Below are positions 21,777-34,586 of a stretch of DNA of 64,000 nucleotides, piece after piece. The notes beneath the pieces are model-generated. The model saw nothing but the letters and a program-made list of their open reading frames with translations, was not told where the DNA came from and ran no database searches. How positions within the stretch are numbered: position 1 is the stretch's first letter; every line of letters begins with the position of its first letter. The stretch is from Achromobacter xylosoxidans A8 (GTDB lineage: Bacteria; Pseudomonadota; Gammaproteobacteria; Burkholderiales; Burkholderiaceae_B). The DNA is taken from NCBI RefSeq assembly GCF_000165835.1, contig NC_014640.1, forward strand, positions 2,542,001 through 2,606,000, in the 5' to 3' direction. The position numbers were made by a program, and so were the translations under genes.

Positions 21777-22358
21777 CTACCGTTGCCCGTCGTGCACCGC
21801 CACGGCTTCCTTGGTCAACCCGCCCAGCCGCGAATGCACCCGGCCGCCCGTGCCCATGACCAGGGCGAACAGAATCTCATTGGCGCGCGGCGCGTCCTGG
21901 ATGCCGATCTCGATGCTGTTGAAGTGGCTGCGCACGTAGGAAGCGTGGATGTAGTGCACCGGCACCATCATGCGGTAGCCGGCCACGGCCACGGCCTTGA
22001 CGGCGGGCACCATGGCGCGGGGCTCGCCCAGCACGCTGCGCATGGCCCAGCCGCCGGCCTCGTGCCAGACCGCGCCATGCTCCATTTCGCCGTCCAGGCC
22101 GACGATGGCGGCCTTGCTGTAGACCTCGATCTGGTCCTTGCCGCCCAGCGTGTCCACCAACTCGGTCGCCAGCAGCGTGCCCAGGCTGCGCAGTTCGGCC
22201 ATGAAGGGCGTCAGGTCCGGTTCGTAGCGGCCGGCATAGGGATTGCGGATGACGGCGCAGGCGGCGGCAAGCTTGAGCGGCCGCTCGGGCGCCGGGCCGT
22301 TCTCGTGGTAGGTAGTCTCGACGATGAGGCAGCGTTTGCGGATATCGATCAGCGACAT
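21777..22358 (-). CDS. DUF1185 amino acid synthesis family protein
   Basis: 193-residue protein of the DUF1185 (amino acid synthesis) family, recognised by RKRCLIVETTYHENGP, a conserved RNPYAGRYEPDL segment, and the central EHGAVWHEAGGWAMR and HYIHASYVRSHFNSIE stretches. No reaction is established for the family that I can name with confidence; members are usually found in catabolic operons beside dehydrogenases and transporters, as here. It has no signal peptide or membrane helix. It is the last gene of a probable operon with the Bug binding protein and hydroxyisobutyrate-dehydrogenase-like genes. Confidence 0.8.
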   Translation of the reverse strand: MSLIDIRKRCLIVETTYHENGPAPERPLKLAAACAVIRNPYAGRYEPDLTPFMAELRSLGTLLATELVDTLGGKDQIEVYSKAAIVGLDGEMEHGAVWHEAGGWAMRSVLGEPRAMVPAVKAVAVAGYRMMVPVHYIHASYVRSHFNSIEIGIQDAPRANEILFALVMGTGGRVHSRLGGLTKEAVAVHDGQR

Positions 22359-22392
22359 GCGGTGAATTCCAAGTTGCGGTTGAAGAGGGCGT

Positions 22393-23358
22393 TCATTGCG
22401 GCGGAATGCCGGTTTCCTTGACGATGGCCGCCCATTTGTCGATCTCGGCGCGTACGAAGCCGCCGAATTCGGCCGGGGTCTGCTGCTTGACGGTCAGGCC
22501 CTGGCGTTCATAGGTCTGCTTGAGTTCGCCATTGGCCAAGGCCTTGCCCAGCGATTGCGACAGGCGCTCGACCACGGGCGCGGGCAGGCCGGCCGGACCC
22601 ATCAGGCCGAACCACACGGTCAGGTCGAAGCCGGGGGCGCCGGTTTCGTTGAGCGTGGGGATGTCCGGCGCCAGCGGAAAGCGTTCCGGCGTACTGACGC
22701 CGTAGGTCTTAACCTTGCCGGCGCGCGCCTGCTGCAGGCCGTTGGCCAGGTCGGTGAAGGTCAGGTCGACGGTGCCGCCGATGACGTCGGTGAGCGCCTG
22801 CGGACCGCCGCGGTAGGGCACCGGCGTGACATTGATCTTGCCCATGGCCGCCAGCTTGGCGCCGAACACCTGCGCGCTGCCCGAGCCGTAGGCATAGGTC
22901 AGCTTGCCGGGATGCTGGGCGCCATAGGCGAACAGATCGGAGACCTGGGTGCCCGGCATGCGCGGCGAACCCACCAGCAGGTAAGGCGTTTCGGCGACGG
23001 CGCCGATGGGCGCGAGGTCGGTGGCGGGGTTGTAGGGCAGGTCCTTGAACAGGCTCACGCCGCTGGCCGCCGTGGACACGCCCACCACTACCAGGGTGTA
23101 GCCGTCAGGCTTGGCGCGGGCCACGTCGTGGGTGCCGATGATGCCGTTGGCGCCAGGCTTGTTCTCCACTACCACCGGCTGGCCCAAATCGTCGGCCATG
23201 GCTTTACCCAGGCTGCGCGCCACCACGTCGGTGATGCTGCCTGGCGGGAAGGGCACGACCATGCGGATGGGGTGGTCGGGATAGCCCGCGGCGCCGGCGG
23301 GCGCCAGCGGCGCGCCCAGCACCAGCGCCAGCGCGAGCGTGGCGGCGGATCGTTTCAT
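22393..23358 (-). CDS. Bug-family tripartite tricarboxylate transporter binding protein
   Basis: 321-residue periplasmic solute-binding protein. The signal peptide MKRSAATLALALVLGAPLAPAGA is followed by the diagnostic YPDHPIRMVVPFPPGSITDV and VENKPGANG.IG segments of the Bug (TctC-like) family that is greatly expanded in Bordetella and relatives. Bug proteins bind carboxylates, amino acids or amides such as nicotinamide. No TctA/TctB membrane partner is encoded nearby, which is common for orphan Bug genes. It probably belongs with the flanking dehydrogenase and DUF1185 genes in uptake and metabolism of one acid. Confidence 0.9.
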   Translation of the reverse strand: MKRSAATLALALVLGAPLAPAGAAGYPDHPIRMVVPFPPGSITDVVARSLGKAMADDLGQPVVVENKPGANGIIGTHDVARAKPDGYTLVVVGVSTAASGVSLFKDLPYNPATDLAPIGAVAETPYLLVGSPRMPGTQVSDLFAYGAQHPGKLTYAYGSGSAQVFGAKLAAMGKINVTPVPYRGGPQALTDVIGGTVDLTFTDLANGLQQARAGKVKTYGVSTPERFPLAPDIPTLNETGAPGFDLTVWFGLMGPAGLPAPVVERLSQSLGKALANGELKQTYERQGLTVKQQTPAEFGGFVRAEIDKWAAIVKETGIPPQ

Positions 23359-23401
23359 GCTTGTCTCCTGTGGATGTCTTTATTGTTGGGGCGGCGCGGG
23401 A

Positions 23402-24310
23402 TCAGGCCGGCGCGCGGGCTTGCAGGCGTTCCAGGTAGCGGTGGATCTCGGTGTTGTCCACGCCAGCGGGCATGTCCGCCAGCGCGCGCTGCCACAGTTC
23501 CGTGCACAGCGACAGTTGCGTGGCGGGAACGCCGGCCAGCGCCTGTAGCGCGTCGGCGGTGCGCAGGTCCTTGGCCATCAAGGCCAGGGCGAAGCCGCCG
23601 TTGTAGGTGCCGGGCACGATGAACTGGCGCAGTTTGGTTTCGGTGGCGACGTTGCGGCCGCTGGACGCGTTGAGCACGTCGGTGAACACCTCCAGGTCCA
23701 GGCCCATGCCTTGCGCGATCAGCAGCGCCTCGCTGGCCGCCAGCAGGCCGGCCGCGTAGACATAATTGTTCAGCGCCTTCATGGCGTGCGCGGAGCCCAC
23801 CGCCCCGGTGTGGATGAGCGAAGCGCCCATGCGCGAGAGCAGCGGACGCACGCGTTCCAGTCCGTCCGCGTCGGCGCCCACCATGATGGCCAGCGTGCCG
23901 GCGGCGGCTTTGGCCACCGCGCCCGATACGGGCGCGTCGATCAGCGTGATGCCCGCCTCGCGCAGGCGCGGCGCCAGCCGCAGCGTTTCGGCCGGATTGG
24001 ACGAGCCCATGTCCAGCAGCACGGAGCCGGGACGCATCGCGCCCGCCAGTCCGTGCTCGCCTTCGATGACCGCATTGGTGATGGCGCTGTCGGGCAGCAT
24101 GGTGATAACCACGTCGCAAGCGGCCAGGGCTTGCAGGCTGGCGGCCGGCTTGAGCGTCCGGTTCCATGCGGGATGCCCGGCCAGGCGCTCCAGGCGCGCG
24201 GGGTCGCGGTCATACGCCAGGATGTTGAAGCCTTCTTCGCCGCCGGCGAGGTTTTCCAGCATGGGCAGGCCCATCATGCCCAGGCCCACGAATCCTACTG
24301 TCAGTGTCAT
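23402..24310 (-). CDS. NAD(P)-dependent oxidoreductase, 3-hydroxyisobutyrate dehydrogenase family
   Basis: 302-residue beta-hydroxyacid dehydrogenase. The Rossmann motif GFVGLGMMGLPM is at the N-terminus, the substrate-binding signature DAPVSGAV lies mid-protein, and the catalytic-lysine region reads KALNNYVYA. The family oxidises 3-hydroxyisobutyrate, tartronate semialdehyde and related acids; the exact substrate is not evident. It is transcribed divergently from the LysR gene at 24436, with 125 bases between the starts, and leads the operon with the Bug and DUF1185 genes, which that LysR protein probably controls. Confidence 0.88.
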   Translation of the reverse strand: MTLTVGFVGLGMMGLPMLENLAGGEEGFNILAYDRDPARLERLAGHPAWNRTLKPAASLQALAACDVVITMLPDSAITNAVIEGEHGLAGAMRPGSVLLDMGSSNPAETLRLAPRLREAGITLIDAPVSGAVAKAAAGTLAIMVGADADGLERVRPLLSRMGASLIHTGAVGSAHAMKALNNYVYAAGLLAASEALLIAQGMGLDLEVFTDVLNASSGRNVATETKLRQFIVPGTYNGGFALALMAKDLRTADALQALAGVPATQLSLCTELWQRALADMPAGVDNTEIHRYLERLQARAPA

Positions 24311-24435: not shown

Positions 24436-25344
24436 ATGCGTTTCAAGCTCAGGCAGATGGAAGTGTTCCGGGCGGTGATGCTGACCGGTTCCATGAATGG
24501 CGCGGCCAAGCTGCTGTTCGTGTCGCAGCCAGCCATCAGCCGCCTCATCGCCCACACCGAGCAGAGCCTGGGCCTGCAGCTCTTCGAACGCGACAAGGGC
24601 AAGCTCACGCCCACCCCGGAAGCGCAGCGCCTGTTCGAGGAGGTGGGGGCGTTGTTCGACGAAGCCCTGCGCATCGATGAACTGGCGCGCGACCTGGCCG
24701 AACGGCCCGAGGGCGCATTGACCCTGTGTTCCAGCCCCAGCCTGGCGCTGAACTTCGTGCCGCCCGTGATTGCGCAGTACCTGGAGCTCTACCCCAAGGT
24801 CAGACTCAAGTTCCACACCACGCTGCTGTCCGACATGGCGCACGAACTGCTGGGGCGCAAGGCGGAACTGGCGGTGTCGGTGCTGCCCATCGACCATCCC
24901 AACCTGGTGGTGGAGCCGTTGGCCACCGGCGAGATGGTCTGCATCCTGCCGCAAGGCCATCCCCTGGCCGCGCGGCGGGCGGTGAGCCTGGCCGACCTGG
25001 CCGAGTGCAAGCTGATCCTCTACAACCGCAACATCCCGTTCGGGCAACTGGTGGCCGCGGCCTTCCAGCGCGCCGGCGTCAGCTGGAATCCGGCCGTGGA
25101 AATCGTGCGCGCCGAATTGGCCTGCGCGCTGGTGCGGGTGGGCGCGGGCGTGGCCATCGTCGATGAGTTCTCGGTCGGGCAGCAGGGCTGGCCCGGCGTG
25201 GTGACGCGGCCGCTGCGCGAGTCGATACCGTTGTCGCTGAGCCTGGTGCGTTCGCGCTTCGACCGCCCCAGCCGCCAGGTGCAGCGTTTCGTGCGCCTGA
25301 TCAAGGAGCATGCGCGCGCTTCGCGCAAGGCGGGCCGATCCTAG
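24436..25344 (+). CDS. LysR-family transcriptional regulator
   Basis: 302-residue regulator. The winged helix occupies residues 1-62 (MRFKLRQMEVFRAVMLTGSMNGAAKLLFVSQPAISR is its opening half, ending in the recognition helix) with the wing LFERDKGKLTPTPEA. The effector domain starts near residue 92 (LTLCSSPSLALNFVP). The overall pattern resembles NocR/OccR and CysB-like regulators of opine and amino-acid catabolism. It is divergent from the dehydrogenase-Bug-DUF1185 operon and has a T-N11-A box next to its own start. Confidence 0.88.
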   Translation: MRFKLRQMEVFRAVMLTGSMNGAAKLLFVSQPAISRLIAHTEQSLGLQLFERDKGKLTPTPEAQRLFEEVGALFDEALRIDELARDLAERPEGALTLCSSPSLALNFVPPVIAQYLELYPKVRLKFHTTLLSDMAHELLGRKAELAVSVLPIDHPNLVVEPLATGEMVCILPQGHPLAARRAVSLADLAECKLILYNRNIPFGQLVAAAFQRAGVSWNPAVEIVRAELACALVRVGAGVAIVDEFSVGQQGWPGVVTRPLRESIPLSLSLVRSRFDRPSRQVQRFVRLIKEHARASRKAGRS

Positions 25345-25482
25345 AGCGTGTTATGAACTTTGGAGCAGGTTGGCTGCATTTCCCTGCATCAGCATGCTGA
25401 AGACCACTTCGACGGAACTTGTGGCTGCGCCAAAGCCCCGCTAGCATCGGCTCAACTGCATTCCCGTTCTGCCCCCGCATCC

Positions 25483-26148
25483 ATGATGGAAGCCACCGTG
25501 ACCGAACCGACCGCCATTGAAGTTTCAGCCGAAGCCGCATCTCATAAGGGCGAATTTTTCCTGATCGACGCCAGCTTCTTGGAAAACGGCAGGGTTCCCG
25601 GCATCGAAATCGCCAACGAAGAGAAGCTGATCGACCCGGGAATGAATGTCGTCTCGCGCCCTAATGGAATGCCAGATCAGTATCCGGAGCGTCCCCACCT
25701 GGTTCATGTACCGGAGAAGGGCGGAATGCCACGCGATCTGGAAGAGCTCGCTGGCATATGGATTGTGTCGGAGCCGTTGAAGCAACTGTTTGAGCAGTTG
25801 GACGCCGAGGCGTTTGCATTTGTGGCATGCGACTTCAGCCTTGCTGACGGCAGCCCCGCTCCGCAGTACTACCTAGGCAATGTGCTGCGCAGACTCGATG
25901 CCCTGGATGAAGCCTCTTCTCGCGTGAGGATCAAGCTCGACCATAATTATCAGACCGGCGAGGACGAGAAACTTTATAGCCTCGTCGGCGGAGCCAGCTT
26001 GGTGTTCAAACAGGATGTTGTGGGAGATGCCCATATCTTCCGCCAGGATCGCATGGGAGCACCTCCCATCTGCGACCGCGCGATGTTTGATGCATTGAGT
26101 GCGGCCAACTTCTCCGGCGTACGGCTGCGCGATGTAGCCGATATTTAG
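25483..26148 (+). CDS. Imm11-type (DUF1629) immunity-like protein, orphan
   Basis: 221-residue cytosolic protein whose C-terminal part (LVFKQDVVGDAHIFRQDRMGAPPICDRAMFDAL, then GVRLRDV) matches what I know of the DUF1629/Imm11 family, immunity proteins of polymorphic toxin and contact-dependent systems. The match is strongest near the end; the rest fits in length and order. No toxin gene, Rhs, VgrG or two-partner secretion gene lies beside it, so it appears to be an orphan. Base composition is visibly less G+C-rich than its neighbours, a sign of transfer. ATG 25483 is uncertain (ATG 25486 is adjacent, and the frame is open to 25360). Upstream, GAGCGTGTTATGAACTTTGG at 25346 looks like the end of an insertion sequence. 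Confidence 0.65.
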   Translation: MMEATVTEPTAIEVSAEAASHKGEFFLIDASFLENGRVPGIEIANEEKLIDPGMNVVSRPNGMPDQYPERPHLVHVPEKGGMPRDLEELAGIWIVSEPLKQLFEQLDAEAFAFVACDFSLADGSPAPQYYLGNVLRRLDALDEASSRVRIKLDHNYQTGEDEKLYSLVGGASLVFKQDVVGDAHIFRQDRMGAPPICDRAMFDALSAANFSGVRLRDVADI

Positions 26149-26307: not shown

Positions 26308-26331
26308 GCGATAGCCGGATCCGGCTATCGC
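26308..26331. promoter_or_regulatory. Perfect 24-bp palindrome upstream of the oxygenase cluster
   Basis: GCGATAGCCGGA (26308-26319) is followed directly by its exact reverse complement TCCGGCTATCGC (26320-26331), with no spacer. It lies 60 bases before the SDR start that opens the cluster. A spacerless palindrome of this length fits a dimeric repressor operator of the TetR type better than an RNA hairpin. A role as terminator of the immunity gene is less likely because it is 160 bases away and lacks a U-run. Confidence 0.6.
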
Positions 26332-26391
26332 CGCCCCGGCGCGCGGCGCCAGTATTCGCCTCACTCAATCAGCTAACGGTGAGGTGATGCG

Positions 26392-27180
26392 ATGAAGGGT
26401 CTGGACAACAAGGTGGCCATCGTGACCGGCGGCGCCACGCTGATCGGCGCGGGCGTGGTTGCGGCGCTGCGGGCCAAGGGCGTGCGCGTGGCGCTGTTCG
26501 ACATCGATGCCGCCGGCGGCGAACGCGTGGCCGCCGCCGATCCGGCCGGCACGCGCTTCTGGCCGGTGGATATTGCGGACGACGCGCAGCTGGAGCGCGG
26601 CGTGGCTGACGCGGCAGCGCATTTCGGCCGCATCGATTTCCTGGTCAATCTGGCGGCCACCTATCTGGACGACGGCGCCGCGTCGGGCCGCGCCGACTGG
26701 CTGCGCGCGCTGGACGTCAACCTGGTCAGCGCCGTGATGGCCGCGCGCGCGGTCCATCCCCATCTGGTCGCGGCTGGCGGCGGGGCCATCGTCAATTTCA
26801 CCAGTATCTCGTCGCGCGTGGCGCAGACCGGGCGCTGGCTGTATCCGGTTTCCAAGGCGGCGCTGCTGCAAGTGACCCGCAACATGGCGATGGACTATGC
26901 CGCCGACGGCATACGCGTCAACTCCGTGTCGCCGGGCTGGACCTGGTCGCGCGTCATGGACGAGCTGACGCAGGGCGACCGCGCCAAGACCGACCGCGTG
27001 GCCGCGGATTACCACTTGCTGGGACGCGCGGGCGATCCGGCCGAAGTGGCCGAGGTGGTCGCCTTCCTGCTTTCAGACCATGCCAGTTTCGTCACCGGCG
27101 CTGATTACGCGGTGGACGGCGGCTACTCGGCCATGGGTCCCGAACAGGCCAAGCCCGCGATTCCGCGCCTGGCCGCCTAG
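26392..27180 (+). CDS. SDR-family oxidoreductase, first gene of oxygenase cluster
   Basis: 262-residue short-chain dehydrogenase. The NAD(P) turn is TGGATLIGAG (a variant of TGxxxGxG), followed by the D at the end of beta-2 (LFDID), the NLAAT strand, the catalytic serine in NFTSIS and a normal YPVSK active site. The C-terminus carries the VDGGYS motif. It would oxidise an alcohol or reduce a ketone. It opens a co-directional five-gene cluster (20 bases to the oxygenase gene), so it probably handles the hydroxylated or epoxide-derived product of that oxygenase. The perfect palindrome at 26308-26331 lies in its promoter region. Confidence 0.87.
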   Translation: MKGLDNKVAIVTGGATLIGAGVVAALRAKGVRVALFDIDAAGGERVAAADPAGTRFWPVDIADDAQLERGVADAAAHFGRIDFLVNLAATYLDDGAASGRADWLRALDVNLVSAVMAARAVHPHLVAAGGGAIVNFTSISSRVAQTGRWLYPVSKAALLQVTRNMAMDYAADGIRVNSVSPGWTWSRVMDELTQGDRAKTDRVAADYHLLGRAGDPAEVAEVVAFLLSDHASFVTGADYAVDGGYSAMGPEQAKPAIPRLAA

Positions 27181-27200
27181 ACATACAAAGGAGAGCAATC

Positions 27201-28442
27201 ATGCGTCGAATCGCAATCGTGGGTGGCGGGCAGGCGGGCTTGCCCCTGGCGCTGGGACTGCTGGACAAAGGCTATGAGGTGACCGTGGTCACCAACCGCG
27301 AGCCGGACCATATCCGCCAGGGCAAAGTGATGTCCAGCCAGTGCATGTTCGATGCCTCGCTGCAAGTCGAGCGCGACCTGGGCCTGAACCAGTGGGAAGC
27401 CGAATGCCCTACGGTGGACGGCATCGGCCTGGCGCTGCCGCATCCGGAACGGCCCGGCCACAAGCTGATCGATTGGGTCGCGCGCCTGGACCGGCCGGCG
27501 CAGGCGGTGGACCAGCGCATCAAGATGCCGGCGTGGATGGAACTGTTCGCGGCGCGCGGCGGCAGGCTGCTGATCCAGGACGGCGGCGTGGCCGAACTCG
27601 AATTGCTGGCGGCCTCGCACGACCTGGTGCTGCTGGCTGCGGGCAAGGGCGAAGTGGTCAAGCTGTTCGAGCGCGACGCGCTACGCTCGCGCTTCGACCG
27701 GCCGCAGCGCGCGCTGGCGCTGACCTATGTGCACGGCATGCGCGCGGCGCCGGATCATTCGCGGGTAGCCTTCAACCTGATTCCGGGCGTGGGCGAGTAC
27801 TTCGTGTTTCCGGCGCTGACCACCAGCGGCCCCTGCGAGATCATGGTGTTCGAAGGCGTGCCCGGCGGTCCGATGGATTGCTGGCGCGACATCAAGTCGC
27901 CGCAAGAGCACCTGGCGCAAAGCCTGCACATCCTGCACACCTACCTGCCCTGGGAGGCCGACCGTTGCGGTTCAGTGGAACTGACCGACGCCAACGGCAT
28001 CCTGGCCGGCAGCTTCGCGCCCACGGTGCGCAAGCCGGTGCTGACCCTGCCGTCGGGCCGGCTGGTGTTCGGCCTGGGCGACGCGGTGGTGACCAACGAC
28101 CCGATCACGGGGCAGGGTTCGAACAACGCCACCAAGGCCTGCGCCGTCTACCTGGACGCGATCCTGGCGCATGGCGACGCGACCTTTACCGCCGAATGGA
28201 TGCAGCGCACCTTCGAGCGCTTCTGGGACTATGGCGGCGCGGTGGTGGAATGGACCAACTCCATGCTGCTGCCGCCGGCGCCGCATCTGCTCAAGCTGTT
28301 GCAGGCCGCGGACCACACGCCTGCGATCGCCAGCGCCATCGCCAACGGCTTCAACCATCCGCCGTCGCTGTATCCCTGGTGGGGCGACGCCACGGCCTGC
28401 GAAGCCTTCATTGCGGCGCAACCGGCGCGGGCGGCGGCATGA
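27201..28442 (+). CDS. Styrene/indole monooxygenase-like flavoprotein, oxygenase component (StyA-like)
   Basis: 413-residue group E flavoprotein monooxygenase. These take reduced FAD from a separate reductase and epoxidise styrene, indole or related alkenes. The FAD-binding motif VGGGQAGLPLALGLL is at residues 7-21, RPQRALALTYVHGM corresponds to the RPQRAL segment of StyA, and GLGDAVVTNDPITGQGSNNA is the C-terminal FAD motif. Length equals that of StyA (about 415). An ATGA overlap couples it to the flavin reductase gene. Identity to true StyA looks modest, so the substrate may well not be styrene. Confidence 0.85.
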   Translation: MRRIAIVGGGQAGLPLALGLLDKGYEVTVVTNREPDHIRQGKVMSSQCMFDASLQVERDLGLNQWEAECPTVDGIGLALPHPERPGHKLIDWVARLDRPAQAVDQRIKMPAWMELFAARGGRLLIQDGGVAELELLAASHDLVLLAAGKGEVVKLFERDALRSRFDRPQRALALTYVHGMRAAPDHSRVAFNLIPGVGEYFVFPALTTSGPCEIMVFEGVPGGPMDCWRDIKSPQEHLAQSLHILHTYLPWEADRCGSVELTDANGILAGSFAPTVRKPVLTLPSGRLVFGLGDAVVTNDPITGQGSNNATKACAVYLDAILAHGDATFTAEWMQRTFERFWDYGGAVVEWTNSMLLPPAPHLLKLLQAADHTPAIASAIANGFNHPPSLYPWWGDATACEAFIAAQPARAAA

Positions 28443-28966
28443 TGACGGGCTGCGCAGCGGGCCTGCCTCTGGACTGGGGCTGCACCGATCTGCATCCCAA
28501 GGTCCTGCGCGGCGTGCTGGGCAGCTATCCGACCGGCGTGGCCATCGTCGCCACACGCTGTCCGGACGGCCGCCAGGTGGGCCTCACCATCAATTCCTTC
28601 GCCTCGTTGTCGCTGGATCCGCCGTTGGTGCTGTGGAGCCTGGTGAACCATTCGCCCAACCTGGCGGCGTTCCGCGATTGCAGCCACTTCACCATCAGCG
28701 TGCTGGCCTGCGGCCAGGAAGAACTGGCCATGCGTTTCGCCAGTTCCTCGGTTCCGGACAAGTTCGCGGGCGCGCCGGTGCACGACGTGCCGGAAGGCGT
28801 ACCCGCCATCGCCGGGGCCGTCGCCACGCTGGTCTGCGCCAACGACCAGCAAAGCCCCGCGGGCGACCATCTGCTGCTGTTCGGCCGGGTGCTGCGGGTG
28901 GCCAGCGTGGCGGCCACGCCGCTGGTGTTCCATGCCGGGCGCTTCACCGCGCTGACCGCCGCGTAG
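28439..28966 (+). CDS. Flavin reductase (StyB-like) partner of the monooxygenase
   Basis: 175-residue flavin:NAD(P)H reductase of the HpaC/StyB family. The FMN-binding fold is recognised by SYPTGVAIVATR, GLTINSFASLSLDPPLVLWSL and HFTISVLACGQEELAMRFAS. It supplies reduced flavin by diffusion to the oxygenase encoded just upstream. Its first ATG (28439) overlaps the oxygenase stop as ATGA, with a second ATG directly after it. Length is typical (170-190). The gene pair order oxygenase-reductase is the same as in styAB operons. Confidence 0.88.
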   Translation: MMTGCAAGLPLDWGCTDLHPKVLRGVLGSYPTGVAIVATRCPDGRQVGLTINSFASLSLDPPLVLWSLVNHSPNLAAFRDCSHFTISVLACGQEELAMRFASSSVPDKFAGAPVHDVPEGVPAIAGAVATLVCANDQQSPAGDHLLLFGRVLRVASVAATPLVFHAGRFTALTAA

Positions 28967-28992
28967 CGGCCTACTACTCATCGGAGCGCATC

Positions 28993-30603
28993 ATGTCCTT
29001 GGAGTCCGAGGCGCAGGTCATCATCGTCGGCAGCGGCATGAACTCGCTGGTCTGCGCGGCCTTGCTGGCGCAGCGCGGCAAGTCGGTGCTGGTGCTGGAA
29101 CGCAACGACAGGCTGGGCGGCTGCATCCGCACCGAGGAACTGTTCCCCGGCTACCGCCACGACGTGCTGTCCTGCTGGTACCCGCTGTTCATGGGCAGCC
29201 CCGCCTATGCGGCGCTCAAGCCGGCGTTGCGCGAGGCCGGACTGGAATTCATGCAAGGCGAGTACGCCACCGGGCTGGTGTTGCCGGACGGTTCGGGCCT
29301 GGCGCTCAAGCAGGACGTGGCGGACAGCGCGCGGCGGCTGGACGCCTGGGCGCCCGGCGACGGCGCGGCCTTCGCCGCCATGGCCCAGCGCCTGTTCGGC
29401 GCGGACGCCGCGCTGACCTTCGGCCTGCTGGGCCAGAACCCCTACGGCACCGGCATGCTCAAGCTGCTGTTCGGCGAATGGCGCAAACGAGGCATGGACG
29501 GTCTGGCCGCCTTCGCCGCCGATTCGATGGAGAGCTTTCGCCGCTGGTCCGAGCGCGCCTTGCAGTCGGACGCCGCGCGCGCCCTGATTGCGCCCTGGGT
29601 GCTGCACACCGGGCTGGGTCCGGACGATGCCTGTTCCGCATTGATCGGCAAGCTGACCTTCGCTGCGGTGGTGGCCGGCGGCATGCCGGTGGTCAAGGGC
29701 GGCGGCGGCGGCGTGGTGGATGCGCTGGCCGCCGTCATCGATCGGCACGGCGGCCGTTTGCAGACCGGCGCGCACGTCGAACGCATCGTCACGCGCGGCG
29801 AGGGCAGGCGCCGCCGGGCCGTGGGCGTAGTGGCGGCAGGGCGGGAGTACCGGGCCACCGAGGCGGTGGTCTGCAACGTGGCGCCGGGTCAGCTGTACGG
29901 GCAGTTGCTGCCCGACGCGCCGCCCGCCATGCGCGAACGCGCCGCCAATTACCGCTACGGCCGCGGCGGCATGCAGATCCATTTCGCGCTGGACGCGCCG
30001 CCGGACTGGCTCACGCCGGAGTTGCGCCATGTGCCGCTGGTGCATCTGACCGAGAGCATGGAGCAGGTCTGCACCTCGGTCACCGAGGCGAACAATGGCT
30101 TGCTGCCGGCGCGTCCCACGCTGGCCATCGGCCAGCCCGTCGCGGTCGATGCCACGCGCGCGCCGCCAGGCGGCTGGATCCTGTGGGTGCAGATGCAGGA
30201 GCTGCCGGCGCGGATCAAGGGCGACGCCGCGGGCGAGATCGCGGCGCCCGCCGACGGCCGCTGGAACGAGGCGGTGCGCGAGGCCATGGCCGACAGGGTG
30301 CAGGCGCGCATGGAGCGCGTGATGCCGGGCCTGACGCGGCGCATCGTCGGCCGCCGTGCCTACTCGCCGGCGGACCTGGAAGGCCTGAACTGCAACCTGG
30401 TCGGGGGCGATCCCTATTCGGGCGTGTGTTCGCCTGACCAGTTCTTCTGGCTGCGGCCCTTTGCTGGCGGCCATGGCGCGCGCGGCCACCGCACGCCGCT
30501 GCGCAATCTCTTTCATATCGGCGCCGCCACTCACCCGGGTCCCGGGCTGGGCGGCGGCTCCGGCTATCTCGTCGCACAACAAATAGGCAGGAGGGGAACA
30601 TGA
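28993..30603 (+). CDS. Phytoene-desaturase-like FAD-dependent oxidoreductase
   Basis: 536-residue flavoprotein of the carotenoid-desaturase/amine-oxidase superfamily. The dinucleotide motif VIIVGSGMNSLVCAALLA and the following LVLERNDRLGGCIRTEE segment are at the N-terminus. The C-terminal FAD motif reads FHIGAATHPGPGLGGGSGYLVAQQI. No crtB-like or other carotenoid gene is nearby, so a role in carotenoid synthesis is unlikely; saturation or desaturation of the oxygenase substrate is more plausible but is inference. GGAG lies seven bases before ATG 28993. Its stop overlaps the start of the channel gene (ATGA). Confidence 0.82.
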   Translation: MSLESEAQVIIVGSGMNSLVCAALLAQRGKSVLVLERNDRLGGCIRTEELFPGYRHDVLSCWYPLFMGSPAYAALKPALREAGLEFMQGEYATGLVLPDGSGLALKQDVADSARRLDAWAPGDGAAFAAMAQRLFGADAALTFGLLGQNPYGTGMLKLLFGEWRKRGMDGLAAFAADSMESFRRWSERALQSDAARALIAPWVLHTGLGPDDACSALIGKLTFAAVVAGGMPVVKGGGGGVVDALAAVIDRHGGRLQTGAHVERIVTRGEGRRRRAVGVVAAGREYRATEAVVCNVAPGQLYGQLLPDAPPAMRERAANYRYGRGGMQIHFALDAPPDWLTPELRHVPLVHLTESMEQVCTSVTEANNGLLPARPTLAIGQPVAVDATRAPPGGWILWVQMQELPARIKGDAAGEIAAPADGRWNEAVREAMADRVQARMERVMPGLTRRIVGRRAYSPADLEGLNCNLVGGDPYSGVCSPDQFFWLRPFAGGHGARGHRTPLRNLFHIGAATHPGPGLGGGSGYLVAQQIGRRGT

Positions 30604-31496
30604 GCGGACACCTGAAACTCCGGCGGCTGGCCAGCGCCACGGCATTGGCGCTGGCCAGCGCGGGGACCCAGGCCACCGAGGGCGGCGGCCTGGGCATCTA
30701 CCCGGACGGCCTGGAGAACTTCATGTCGGGCGCGCTGCCGCCACCCGGCGTGCACATGCTGGTCTATGCCGGCGGGGCGCGCTACGACACGCTGCGCGGC
30801 AACGACGGCGAGCGCGTGCCGGTGCCTGGCTTCAAGGTCGACGTCAACGTGCTGGCGCCGCGCCTGATCTGGGTCACGCAGCAGCAGGTCATGGGCGGAC
30901 AGCTGGCCTTCCACGCCATTGCGCCGCTGCTGGACGTGACCGCCAAGGCTGCCGGCCAGCGCAACCGCAGCACCGGGCTGGGCGACATGACGCTGGGCGT
31001 GGCGCTGGGCTATCACCCGTCCGAAAGCCTGCACTACGTGGTCGGGCTGGACATGTACGCGCCGACCGGCGAGTACAACCGCAAGGACCCGTCCAGCCTG
31101 GGCAAGAACTACTGGACTGCGCAGCCGGTGTTCGCGCTGAGCCGCATCAGTCCGGACGGCTTCAACGCCGACCTGAAAGTCATGTACGACTTCAACTTCA
31201 CCAACTCGGCCACCGATACGCGTTCGGGCCAGGCGCTGCACGCCGACTACGCGCTGGGCTGGGGCGTGGGCAAGGGCTGGGTGCTGGGGGTGGGCGGCTA
31301 CGCCTTCCAGCAGGTCACCGACGACAGCGGCCCCAACAGCGCCGCGGGCCGCGCCCGGGCTTTCGGCTTCGGCCCTTCGGTACGCTACATGAATGAAAAA
31401 GGCTGGCTGTTCACGGCGAAGTGGCAGCAGGACTTCAAGGTCAAGAACCGGCCCGAAGGCGCGCAGCTGTATGTGAAGCTGGGGATTCCGTTCTAG
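30600..31496 (+). CDS. Outer-membrane channel, SphA / phenol-MetA family
   Basis: 298-residue exported protein with an N-terminal signal peptide ending near TQATEG and a C-terminus YVKLGIPF, whose terminal phenylalanine is typical of outer-membrane beta-barrels. Alternating hydrophobic strands, the GLGDMTLGVALGYHP segment and DLYAPTGEYN-like motif (here LDMYAPTGEYN) identify the phenol_MetA_deg family, often found in aromatic or hydrophobic-compound catabolic operons. It probably admits the hydrophobic substrate of the flavoproteins encoded before it, with which it shares an ATGA overlap. It is the last gene of the cluster. Confidence 0.82.
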   Translation: MSGHLKLRRLASATALALASAGTQATEGGGLGIYPDGLENFMSGALPPPGVHMLVYAGGARYDTLRGNDGERVPVPGFKVDVNVLAPRLIWVTQQQVMGGQLAFHAIAPLLDVTAKAAGQRNRSTGLGDMTLGVALGYHPSESLHYVVGLDMYAPTGEYNRKDPSSLGKNYWTAQPVFALSRISPDGFNADLKVMYDFNFTNSATDTRSGQALHADYALGWGVGKGWVLGVGGYAFQQVTDDSGPNSAAGRARAFGFGPSVRYMNEKGWLFTAKWQQDFKVKNRPEGAQLYVKLGIPF

Positions 31497-31919: not shown

Positions 31920-32549
31920 TCAGCGGGACGACGGCTTGCCTTGGCCTTGAAGCTCCTGGACCGCAAACAGAACCAGCTCGGCCTTGTTGAGAGAGTTGTC
32001 GCGGTCCGCATTGTCCAGCAGATCGTCGATCTGTCCACGCAGATGCCGGCAGTCGCTGGATTCGCCTTTGGGATTGATCTTTTTTACCGCGACCCGTACT
32101 TGGGAAACCCAGTCGCGCTCGGCCTGAGCCAATTTTTGCAGTCGCTGCTGGCGCTTGGTTGCCGCCGCGACCGCTTCCGGCGTTCGGATTGCGTCTGTGG
32201 TCGCTTTCAAAATTGCTTTGGACTCATAGGGGACTTGGGCAAGAGGCTTGCCAAGGACCGCTTCCGCCACGGCCAGCGATGACAGTTTATTGATGTCGTC
32301 GATGGGAACGTCGATGGCGCAAGCGCCGGCGGCGGCGATGTGCGCGCCGGCCCGCTCGCCGAGCGGGATTTTCTGCAGGCGCGGTGAAAGCGCGGCGACG
32401 GCTGCGCGCCTGGCTTCGGCCTTCGCATCGGCCGAGCGCAAGGCCTGGCTCGAAGCCTCGAACGCCTGCATGTCGATATCGTCCGAAGCGCCTGCCGTCC
32501 CGATGGACAACGAAGCGCAAAGAAGAAGGCTGCTTTGTAGTGTTTTCAT
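31920..32549 (-). CDS. Secreted hypothetical protein, helical
   Basis: 209-residue protein with a Sec signal peptide (MKTLQSSLLLCASLSIGTAGAS) and a mature part predicted to be largely helical. It contains two cysteines that could form a disulphide (GACAIDV and SSDCRHL). Near the C-terminus the acidic stretch NADRDNSLNKAELVLFAV has the spacing of an EF-hand-like calcium loop (D-x-D-x-S-x-x-x-A-E), which is suggestive only. No family recognised. It is divergent from another secreted helical protein of similar size (32780), with 230 bases between starts. Confidence 0.7.
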   Translation of the reverse strand: MKTLQSSLLLCASLSIGTAGASDDIDMQAFEASSQALRSADAKAEARRAAVAALSPRLQKIPLGERAGAHIAAAGACAIDVPIDDINKLSSLAVAEAVLGKPLAQVPYESKAILKATTDAIRTPEAVAAATKRQQRLQKLAQAERDWVSQVRVAVKKINPKGESSDCRHLRGQIDDLLDNADRDNSLNKAELVLFAVQELQGQGKPSSR

Positions 32550-32779
32550 CGAGTGTCCTTCCCTGGGCTGCGCCAGACCTGCGGCCCCCTGTTGCGCGAG
32601 TTTCGTGGAAATCCACCTTCCATGCCATAGCGGCCAACGGTTGAGGAAAGCAGGCGTTGTTCGGATGCAACTGTAGGCCTGCTCTCGCGGGTGTTTTGGG
32701 ACCTCGCTCACCATTCTGGCTGATGCTGGAATAGCATCCGGCGTGGAGATATCCGCGCCGGCGAGCGCTCACGGGGAAC

Positions 32780-33391
32780 ATGATGAAAAGAACAATTTCG
32801 GCGCTGGCGCTTTTCTTGTGCAGCGGACTTGCCGCGGCGCAGAACACGAGCAGCAGCTTTGAAGTGCAGGAACCGATGCGCAATTCGTTGGGTTTTGCGA
32901 TGGGTAGCGACAGCGGCCAGGAGTGGCTGGGTGACAGGGCCGTCGCCCACATGGGTTTCATCGCCGCTTGCAAGCTGTACCCGGCAGACGGGCCGGAGGT
33001 GCAAGGGCTGGTGGCCATGGCCCTGGCGCAAGCGAGCCTGGGCATGGACCTGGCCCGCGCGCCGACAGACCCGGCTGCGCTGCGCGCCAAGCTCGCCCAG
33101 CGCCTGAACTCCCAGGAAGGGCGCAAGGACGCGGCGGAGAAAATCCAGGCGATGCGCAAGCGCGTTCTTGCCGAGCAGGCGCATGCCGGCAAGTTGATAG
33201 ACGCTTCCGTGGGTTTTACGGGCAAGAATCCGAATCCCTGCGAACTCGAGCGGTACTACGCGCGTCAGTTCCTGACGCAGCACAAGGACGGCGCCATGAA
33301 AGCGGCTCCCAAGATCAACCAGCTTGCGCGTGAGGTGATGGCGCAGGATTCCTCTGCCAAGGCAAAGCCGGCTGCGCCAGCCAGGCCCTGA
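32780..33391 (+). CDS. Secreted hypothetical protein, helical
   Basis: 203-residue protein with a signal peptide (MMKRTISALALFLCSGLAAAQ, cleavage after AAA-Q region). The mature part is helical, with two cysteines (AACKLYP and NPCELER) and a basic, alanine/proline-rich tail. ATG 32780 or 32783 could be used. I do not recognise a family. It resembles the divergent neighbour only in general plan (signal peptide, helical, two cysteines, about 200 residues), not clearly in sequence. It converges on the AraC gene with 12 bases between stops. Confidence 0.7.
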   Translation: MMKRTISALALFLCSGLAAAQNTSSSFEVQEPMRNSLGFAMGSDSGQEWLGDRAVAHMGFIAACKLYPADGPEVQGLVAMALAQASLGMDLARAPTDPAALRAKLAQRLNSQEGRKDAAEKIQAMRKRVLAEQAHAGKLIDASVGFTGKNPNPCELERYYARQFLTQHKDGAMKAAPKINQLAREVMAQDSSAKAKPAAPARP

Positions 33392-33403: not shown

Positions 33404-34432
33404 TCAGCCGCGCCGCCGCAGGCTCTGGCTGGGGCTTACGCCGTAGCGTTCCTTGTAGCCGGCGCTGAAGCGTCCCATGTGCGCGAAGCCCCAGCGCAGC
33501 GCCACGCCGGCGATGTTGCGGCTTTCACCCGAGACCAGCTCGGCGTGCGCGCGTTCCATGCGCAGGTCGCGCAGGTAGTGCATGGGACTCACGCCCAGGA
33601 ATTCCTTGAATCCCGCGTACAGGCTGCGCACGCTGACGCCGGCGATGCGCGCCAGCTGTTCGGCGCTGACGGATTCGTGCGCGTGCGCCTGCAGATAGTC
33701 CTGGACGCTGCGCACGTGGCGCGGCAGCACCGCGCCGCGGCGGCCCGGCAGCGCGCCGGTGTAGTTGTGAGGCTGGGCAGATAGCAGGGTGGCGGCGACC
33801 AGCTGTTCCATCTGATGCACGATGAGTTTGTGCTGGGCCAGGTTCGCGTGCTGCGTGGAGCAGTCCAGCAGATAGCTCATCAGGCAGCGCCAAGCGGGGC
33901 ATTCGCGCCAGCGGAATCCCAACTGGAAGCGCAGCGGCCGGTCCAGCGCACAGCCCAGATGTCCCACCAGGGTGCGTTCCAGCAGCGAGCGGCCCACGCG
34001 CAGCATGAACTGGTCGTTGTCCTCGGCCCAGCGCATGGCCAGGTCGTCGTCCGGGCTGACGACCGAGGCGACATCGGGCGTCGAATCCACTTGTTGCGGG
34101 CCGCTGCTGATGCGGGCACAGCCCGATAGCGGCATTTGCACCAGGAAAAAGTCTTCCAGCGGGCCGGGCCGGATCTCGACGTTGGCGCCGTAGCGCAGGC
34201 GGTTCAGCGAGACTTCGCCCAGCGGCTGGTGGTGCATGCGCGCGTCCAGGCGTTGCAGCGCGCCGACCACGCCCAGGTGGTGCGGACGCATCACGCGGCC
34301 GACCATGGAGCGGGCCTCGTCCAGATCGCCCGAGGCGAACAGTTGCTGCGCCGGCAAGCCCAGGACGGACTCGATCCGCGGTCCGGCCGTCGGCCAAGAA
34401 GTGCTGGTGGCGGACTGCGTCGTATCGAGCAT
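33404..34432 (-). CDS. AraC-family transcriptional regulator
   Basis: 342-residue regulator. The C-terminal AraC/XylS domain has two helix-turn-helix units (SAEQLARIAGVSVRSLYAGFKEFLG and SRNIAGVALRWGFAHMGRFSAGY) and ends with the conserved YKERYGVSPSQSLR. The N-terminal half matches the AraC_binding_2-like effector domain of AntR/OxoS-type regulators of aromatic catabolism. ATG 34432 has GGAG about ten bases upstream; the frame is open to 34585 without family similarity. Between it and the divergent marR gene lies a strong palindrome (34587-34624). Its target genes are not obvious here. Confidence 0.87.
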   Translation of the reverse strand: MLDTTQSATSTSWPTAGPRIESVLGLPAQQLFASGDLDEARSMVGRVMRPHHLGVVGALQRLDARMHHQPLGEVSLNRLRYGANVEIRPGPLEDFFLVQMPLSGCARISSGPQQVDSTPDVASVVSPDDDLAMRWAEDNDQFMLRVGRSLLERTLVGHLGCALDRPLRFQLGFRWRECPAWRCLMSYLLDCSTQHANLAQHKLIVHQMEQLVAATLLSAQPHNYTGALPGRRGAVLPRHVRSVQDYLQAHAHESVSAEQLARIAGVSVRSLYAGFKEFLGVSPMHYLRDLRMERAHAELVSGESRNIAGVALRWGFAHMGRFSAGYKERYGVSPSQSLRRRG

Positions 34433-34586
34433 GGTGGGGGACTCCACTGCCGGGGTCTTGAAGGCTTTGATAGTAAAGCTGCGCCGGACCGGGCGGACTG
34501 GTGGAAAACCCGTCCAGGGGCGGGGAGTTCTATCCATTTCTTGCGGCGGGTGTCCACGGAGCGCAGAAAACCAAGGCAAATTCATG

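Follow-up and report, generated by a model that had tools for sequence, protein, structure and literature searches.

An Achromobacter operon predicted to degrade indole, with a CrtI-family flavoprotein as a candidate source of isatin

We analyzed a five-gene operon in a 64,000-nucleotide stretch of the Achromobacter xylosoxidans A8 genome (contig NC_014640.1, positions 2,542,001 to 2,606,000; hereafter the window, to which coordinates refer). It is likely that this operon directs the degradation of indole by an isatin-based variant of the pathway, in which a flavoprotein of the CrtI family makes isatin. An initial annotation, made from the sequence alone, had described five co-directional genes behind a 24-base-pair (bp) spacerless palindrome, which sequence and Pfam matches bear out, and had overlooked an AraC-family regulator gene of the cluster. 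The genes are close-packed, with gaps of 20 and 26 nucleotides (dehydrogenase/oxygenase and reductase/flavoprotein, respectively) and, as also annotated, 4-nucleotide ATGA overlaps at 28439 and 30600:

26392-27180, + strand: short-chain dehydrogenase/reductase (SDR) of the IifB/DhoB/GS-B type (Pfam adh_short_C2)
27201-28442, + strand: predicted indole monooxygenase of group E, dependent on flavin adenine dinucleotide (FAD), IndA/IifC/GS-C type (Smoa_sbd domain, identity, fingerprint and trees)
28439-28966, + strand: flavin reductase of the IndB/IifD/GS-D type (Flavin_Reduct; its ATG overlaps the oxygenase stop codon)
28993-30603, + strand: CrtI-family FAD oxidoreductase of the GS-O type (Amino_oxidase/NAD_binding_8)
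30600-31496, + strand: porin-like channel gene (Phenol_MetA_deg, PF13557, 218.3 bits; position in related loci)
33404-34585, - strand: AraC-family regulator of the GS-R type, convergent to the operon (Pfam; identity to a Providencia regulator)

In the proposed route the reductase would supply reduced FAD to the monooxygenase, which would oxidize indole at C2-C3, and the SDR would oxidize the monooxygenase product to 3-hydroxyindolin-2-one (dioxindole). The reactions of the flavoprotein and all later steps we infer from gene identities, linkage and co-occurrence: dioxindole would lose two electrons to the flavoprotein and so become isatin, which would be opened to isatinate by an isatin hydrolase, whose gene lies beside that of the flavoprotein in many clusters. 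Among the genomes examined, those of Achromobacter and of the Alcaligenes group have the hydrolase gene elsewhere, and in the five whose surroundings of it were read (the window genome and four of the Alcaligenes group) it lies in an iad-type auxin-degradation locus. Isatinate would then be converted to anthranilate, or perhaps directly to 2-aminobenzoyl-coenzyme A (CoA) where IorAB-like and 2-aminobenzoyl-CoA-monooxygenase-like genes are linked. In the classical iif pathway the dienelactone-hydrolase-like oxygenase IifA turns dioxindole directly into anthranilate.

Operon genes and their relation to known indole clusters

The oxygenase has the substrate-binding domain of styrene and indole monooxygenases (PF17885, 154.6 bits against a cut-off of 25). 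Its nearest named relative locus is that of A. xylosoxidans B_1 (98%), and it is 71.4% identical to the enzyme of the Providencia cluster, 65.1% to the first oxygenase of a Variovorax paradoxus plasmid locus and 63.8% to an Acinetobacter baumannii iif-type enzyme; for StyA of Pseudomonas VLB120 the figure is 31.6%. Among solved structures, 7z4x, which we take to be VpIndA1, and its relatives come closest, at about 600 bits, versus 149 bits for StyA (3ihm). A published fingerprint, S46-Q48-M50-V/I73-I76-A96 in StyA numbering, separates indole from styrene enzymes (PMC13101512). All six of its residues are present in the oxygenase, positions 46, 48, 50 and 96 being taken from a MAFFT alignment and positions 73 (V) and 76 (I) from a HMMER alignment to StyA; the MAFFT alignment put L and P at the last two positions, which we judged misplaced. 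The residues differ from those of the styrene fingerprint N46-V48-H50-Y73-H76-S96. By these sequence measures the oxygenase belongs with the indole enzymes and not with the styrene enzymes, and no second oxygenase of the indole/styrene kind was detected in the genome at E <= 0.001.

These results bear on the original view of the operon as encoding a StyA/StyB-like pair that serves a catabolic or detoxifying route for an alkene, indole or terpenoid. Group E does include styrene epoxidases (PMC6165268) and the flavoprotein does resemble carotenoid enzymes, so that a role in handling styrene, another alkene or a terpenoid was worth weighing. The oxygenase, however, stays well under the cut-off of the NCBIfam StyA equivalog (220.8 bits versus 550), does not group with StyA and lacks the styrene fingerprint. 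The flavoprotein likewise scores far below the carotenoid-enzyme cut-offs (see below), and the neighbors of related loci include genes for isatin hydrolase and for IorAB-like and 2-aminobenzoyl-CoA-monooxygenase-like proteins. We therefore regard such a role as very improbable. A catabolic function is probable with indole as the substrate, and nothing that was found points to an alkene or terpenoid. The lack of StyC and StyD in the surroundings of the operon, which had seemed worthy of remark, is not odd, since the pair is not of the styrene type.

The SDR is 62% identical to that of an A. baumannii iif-type cluster, and in most loci of either type, flavoprotein or IifA, such an enzyme is encoded next to the oxygenase. 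It appears to be the usual IifB-type enzyme, with indole-2,3-dihydrodiol to 3-hydroxyindolin-2-one as its predicted step. Hence, of the two enzymes thought at the outset to replace the standard lower steps, the desaturase-like flavoprotein seems to do so and the SDR does not. The SDR, oxygenase and reductase genes that mark an iif operon stand together in the window, and no IifA-type gene was found in the window locus. The iif/ind clusters of Acinetobacter and Cupriavidus and the dhoAB-ipoABC cluster of Pseudomonas savastanoi (PMC6221969, PMC12538310) share the monooxygenase, reductase, SDR, channel and AraC regulator with the window cluster, but unlike it carry the dienelactone-hydrolase-like IifA/DhoA. 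The iif-type loci that we saw in Acinetobacter, Burkholderia and Cupriavidus had neither the flavoprotein nor an isatin hydrolase in the cluster. The VpIndA1/IndA2B locus of V. paradoxus, the source of the 65.1% identical oxygenase, also differs from the window in having an IifA-type gene and a second oxygenase with reductase, which is a two-domain protein (PMC6017014).

The closest counterpart is the indole cluster of Providencia rettgeri GS-2 (GS-B, C, D, A, O, E, R). The window shares with it, in the same order, the SDR, monooxygenase, reductase, GS-O flavoprotein, MetA-type channel and AraC regulator, whereas GS-A, which lies between reductase and flavoprotein in GS-2, is missing from the Achromobacter cluster. 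On its gene content, the window operon is the Achromobacter version of the GS-2 cluster; the Providencia sequences compared come from strains other than GS-2 (YPR31 in the case of L029). Over 322 residues the AraC regulator of the window shares 62% identity with the one adjoining the Providencia cluster, and an open reading frame of its BLAST family occurs in 62 of 81 loci (window counted). In the published work GS-C and GS-D formed indigo from indole, isatin was identified against a standard, and GS-O gave no pigment with or without GS-E (PMC9871250). According to the same study GS-O is confined to Providencia and has no assigned function (PMC9871250). The loci described below correct the first of these statements: relatives of GS-O occur in such clusters across alpha-, beta- and gammaproteobacteria.

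The flavoprotein itself scores 96 bits against the crtI_fam model (cut-off 238.1) and 143.8 bits against CrtO (cut-off 1000). Its AlphaFold model (predicted local distance difference test score 88.2) has the same overall fold as solved carotenoid desaturase and amine oxidase flavoproteins (4rep, NicA2), at identities of 17% or less, and no carotenoid genes were seen beside it; in view of the low model scores carotenoid synthesis was rejected. The flavoproteins of the related loci fall into two main groups with one outlier (L037). Judged from the genes that accompany it, this protein probably oxidizes dioxindole to isatin, which gives GS-O a candidate function. In the open-licence literature we found nothing on the flavoprotein other than PMC9871250 and no paper that assigns a function to it, an earlier description of it or of the hydrolase, for instance for the Burkholderia iif2 cluster, being possible. 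Two CrtI-like matches (G030:C1:1117567-1119153 and G252:C36:3838-5409) contain one internal TGA each.

INDEPENDENCE Two cluster types on the oxygenase tree

To survey the gene neighborhoods of the oxygenase we scanned genomes for its relatives; the best 80 of 465, together with the window and 11 loci from plasmid records, made a set of 92 loci. By gene content, 58 of these have a CrtI-like gene, 24 are of the IifA type, 10 have neither and none has both. Among the ten are L103, which served as styrene control, the distant locus L102, L015 and L055, which lie on contigs that end early, and L030, where the flavoprotein gene lies outside the locus on the same contig. Wider sampling of 369 and 398 genomes returned 5 and 10 genomes besides that of the window; three from the second sample (L028, L048 and L062) were already in the set and were counted once. 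Eight extra loci from these samples comprised five of the IifA type, two with neither gene and one, L120, cut off by the end of its contig. The last 449 bp recur without a difference at the end of another contig, which bears porin and flavoprotein genes, and L120 was therefore counted as flavoprotein-type. With a second cluster of Cupriavidus sp. IDO (L137), also flavoprotein-type, the final 101 loci include 60 with a flavoprotein near the oxygenase, 29 with the dienelactone-hydrolase-like IifA gene, 12 with neither and none with both, a total that leaves out four distant matches (39-43%) of the first sample, visible only as 4-kb loci without partner genes.

The 58 flavoprotein loci of the first set show ten gene orders. 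The window order (SDR, monooxygenase, reductase, flavoprotein, porin) occurs in 17 of them, all Achromobacter and with the window counted, and the same order with a PF04199 gene inserted before the flavoprotein in 23 more; the other variants are fewer. The five genes thus recur together elsewhere, as the proposal that they form a unit would predict. Three Pseudacidovorax loci have neither an SDR of the IifB family nor a reductase nearby.

On an oxygenase tree of 66 rows (33 near-duplicates and two outgroup rows having been dropped, and L120 still scored as having neither partner) at least three changes between cluster types, whichever way they ran, are needed, as compared with two in an earlier set. 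The idea that a single clade explains the mutual exclusion of the two types is weakened accordingly. Cupriavidus sp. IDO has a cluster of each type, the IifA-type L058 and L137 with flavoprotein and hydrolase; the L137 oxygenase, on a long branch, groups with IifA-type oxygenases (bootstrap 99, Shimodaira-Hasegawa-like approximate likelihood ratio test 92). An Azospirillum cluster (L098) likewise pairs flavoprotein and hydrolase, and its tree position has weak support in the backbone. A Streptomyces plasmid locus (L100) has neither partner type; it encodes an indole-type monooxygenase, a fused oxygenase-reductase, an FAD monooxygenase and a VOC protein, perhaps for another lower route.

Isatin hydrolase, IifA-like genes and the lower pathway

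The PF04199 protein GS-A has been described as an arylformamidase/cyclase in P. rettgeri GS-2 (PMC9871250). Its best matches in the PDB are the isatin hydrolases RsIHA (5nmp, E 1.8e-134), LaIHA (5nna/5nnb, about 7e-101) and LaIHB (4j0n, 1.7e-78), and on these similarities the 'cyclase' is an isatin hydrolase. Neither the window cluster nor the 16 other complete Achromobacter clusters contain GS-A. The window genome encodes a single close homolog elsewhere, 64% identical to Providencia GS-A, with the sequence HTGTHFDAPAH in agreement with the family motif HxG[T/A]HxDxPxH (PMC6117287); it matches 5nmp at E 9.3e-118 versus 1.2e-4 for kynurenine formamidase (4cob).

We searched 78 genomes (51 + 27; L075 not included) for the hydrolase at E <= 1e-60, setting flavoprotein status from the loci and an additional genome search. 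Flavoprotein and hydrolase occur together in 53, the flavoprotein alone in one, the hydrolase alone in one and neither in 23 (Fisher p = 1.6e-17, a value that ignores relatedness and comes from genomes all chosen for an indole-type oxygenase). In the flavoprotein-only genome, G043 (a 2.5-Mb assembly), a fragment of the hydrolase adjoins the flavoprotein where the contig ends, and the hydrolase-only genome, G778, is of the IifA type. Two of 24 IifA-type genomes have the hydrolase, G778 and G798, and the latter also has a flavoprotein cluster. In L139 and L140, from alphaproteobacteria-like genomes (the phylum of the window but a different class), a hydrolase-flavoprotein pair is found at a distance from the oxygenase, with IorA- and IorB-like genes after it; these hydrolases are 47-48% identical to that of Providencia. 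Two divergent CrtI-like paralogs flank the hydrolase gene there (L139 7443-16397, L140 7091-16080). In L142 (5147-12780; G252) co-directional 2-aminobenzoyl-CoA-monooxygenase-like, isatin hydrolase, IorA-like and IorB-like genes occur with no CrtI-like gene in an 18-kb stretch.

This distribution bears on the alternative that the operon does degrade indole but that isatin arises spontaneously from the SDR product, the flavoprotein having another task such as acting on substituted indoles or clearing indoxyl or indigoid by-products. The authors of the GS-2 study drew the isatin step as spontaneous, and four GS-2 proteins had effects without GS-O (PMC9871250); moreover, the fold of the flavoprotein is common to enzymes of many substrates. 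A dispensable accessory gene would not, however, be expected to match the hydrolase in presence or absence in 76 of 78 genomes, or to be absent from all IifA-type loci, and we consider spontaneous formation unlikely.

The Achromobacter and Alcaligenes flavoprotein clusters lack the hydrolase gene, and their genomes carry it elsewhere. Its neighbors in the window genome are thiolase and CoA ligase genes together with Rieske and indolepyruvate-oxidoreductase-like genes, and the four Alcaligenes-group genomes examined have it in the same surroundings. From gene order and annotation we read this as an iad-type auxin locus and the gene as iadI; no close CrtI-like gene was found in the iad-type locus of the window genome. 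The iad locus of Variovorax, Achromobacter and Alcaligenes (PMC12633357, PMC9613470) resembles the proposed indole route in passing through a dioxindole-like C8H7NO2 and in using a hydrolase of the same family, but, unlike the window operon, has indole-3-acetate as its starting compound and a Rieske oxygenase for the first step. In Variovorax an iadI deletion accumulates C8H7NO2, and the later C8H7NO3 is not N-formylanthranilate (PMC12633357); by calculation isatinate has this formula as well. Variovorax, Alcaligenes and Achromobacter carry iad at a prevalence above 0.95 (PMC9613470). The hydrolase of this locus may serve the indole operon. Alcaligenes strains are reported to form isatin from indole (PMC6221969), and the Alcaligenes clusters found here are of the flavoprotein type.

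The main observation against isatin formation by the operon is that the window genome holds an unlinked IifA-like gene (73% identity), as do all 17 other Achromobacter genomes searched. Achromobacter might therefore use the classical route, with an unlinked IifA-like protein making anthranilate in trans and the flavoprotein being a relic or a side activity; consistent with this, the window genome has a 2-aminobenzoyl-CoA-monooxygenase-like gene about 8.5 kb ahead of the IifA-like gene. Against it, the flavoprotein match is full-length and stop-free in each of the 17 Achromobacter loci extending to the gene (window counted), and the unlinked gene stands with Rieske oxygenase and periplasmic-binding-protein genes. 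At E <= 1e-100, 18 of 50 genomes carry an IifA-like gene (17 Achromobacter and B. anthina), whereas, of the 33 genomes from outside Achromobacter, 32 are without it; G040, which belongs to these 32, also lacks the flavoprotein. Taken together, we think the classical route in trans quite improbable. The notion that an IifA-like gene is always absent from a flavoprotein genome was nevertheless rejected for Achromobacter and B. anthina, and with 18 of 50 genomes carrying such a gene the exclusion is weaker at the genome level than the flavoprotein-hydrolase match. No IifA-like gene was found in Curvibacter gracilis. The unlinked IifA-like gene (dienelactone hydrolase plus SnoaL), with its Rieske alpha and beta genes and the nearby 2-aminobenzoyl-CoA-monooxygenase-like gene, is covered by L091 7905-11029 and G000:C1:623119-625452.

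Returning to isatin formation by the flavoprotein, the genes further downstream are of interest for the fate of isatinate. IorA-like genes adjoin 13 of 81 loci. In L025, L027, L036 and Providencia L029 (extended as L145), the four cases with enough sequence, IorA and IorB are followed by a salicylyl-CoA 5-hydroxylase/2-aminobenzoyl-CoA-monooxygenase-like gene, which is cut by the end of the locus in three; this linkage was seen in Providencia, Burkholderia, Paraburkholderia and Trinickia. As isatinate is a 2-oxo acid, a 2-oxoacid:ferredoxin oxidoreductase could yield 2-aminobenzoyl-CoA from it. This IorAB-like step is the boldest and least supported element of the proposal, and it has to be set against the report that the nine-gene iadC-K2 region of Variovorax, which by its letters excludes iadA and iadB, already yields anthranilate (PMC12633357). 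More tentatively than the isatin route as such, then, we suggest that two lower indole pathways may share one upper module. The second would consist of a CrtI-family dioxindole oxidoreductase, an isatin hydrolase and an IorAB-like isatinate:ferredoxin oxidoreductase leading to 2-aminobenzoyl-CoA without free anthranilate, with Achromobacter and Alcaligenes borrowing the hydrolase of the auxin locus.

A 2018 review asked whether isatin is a true intermediate of indole degradation, noting that the iif cluster has no gene to make or use it (PMC6221969). If the proposed route is correct, isatin would be a real intermediate of bacterial indole catabolism and not an artefact. Both camps may be right, with IifA clusters bypassing isatin and clusters with flavoprotein and hydrolase passing through it, and one hydrolase family would join indole and auxin catabolism. 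The flavoprotein might also be of use in indigoid production, where isatin leads to by-products.

Upstream palindrome and neighboring genes

The palindrome noted at the outset lies upstream of the operon:

26308-26331, no strand: perfect 24-bp palindrome GCGATAGCCGGATCCGGCTATCGC (exact symmetry; within a partly conserved upstream block)

It is the sole perfect spacerless palindrome of at least 18 bp in the window, where about 0.004 would be expected by arithmetic with equal base frequencies, and so is rarer than chance; it is single-copy in the 7.36-Mb genome even with three mismatches allowed. In an alignment of 18 Achromobacter loci the block is conserved in part, namely in CGGATA and in a stretch of the form GCC..ATC.GG.TA, about 60 bp 5' of the SDR start. 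Counted by eye, the four nearest aligned relatives keep 10, 10, 10 and 9 of the 12 palindrome pairs. A conserved perfect operator was rejected in that form, the perfect symmetry being found in the window alone among the loci compared; the palindrome is a possible operator. No promoter-like sites were found 5' of the operon, against three on the minus strand where 0.6 were expected, and terminator-like sites were at background level.

Two short genes without a Pfam match, 31920-32714 (- strand) and 32780-33391 (+ strand), separate the porin gene from the AraC regulator, which in L005 comes directly after the porin gene. Upstream, a LysR regulator gene (24436-25344, + strand) was considered as the operon regulator and rejected, having been matched in only 5 of 80 loci. 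An Imm11-type immunity gene (25360-26148, + strand; PF07791, 229 bits) lies between it and the SDR; as the LysR-SDR spacing is only about 195 bp in L002, L003 and L004, this gene looks like an insertion. The LysR gene is divergent from a separate unit (21777-24310, - strand) of TctC-type binding protein, 3-hydroxyisobutyrate-dehydrogenase-like and AA_synth (PF06684) genes.

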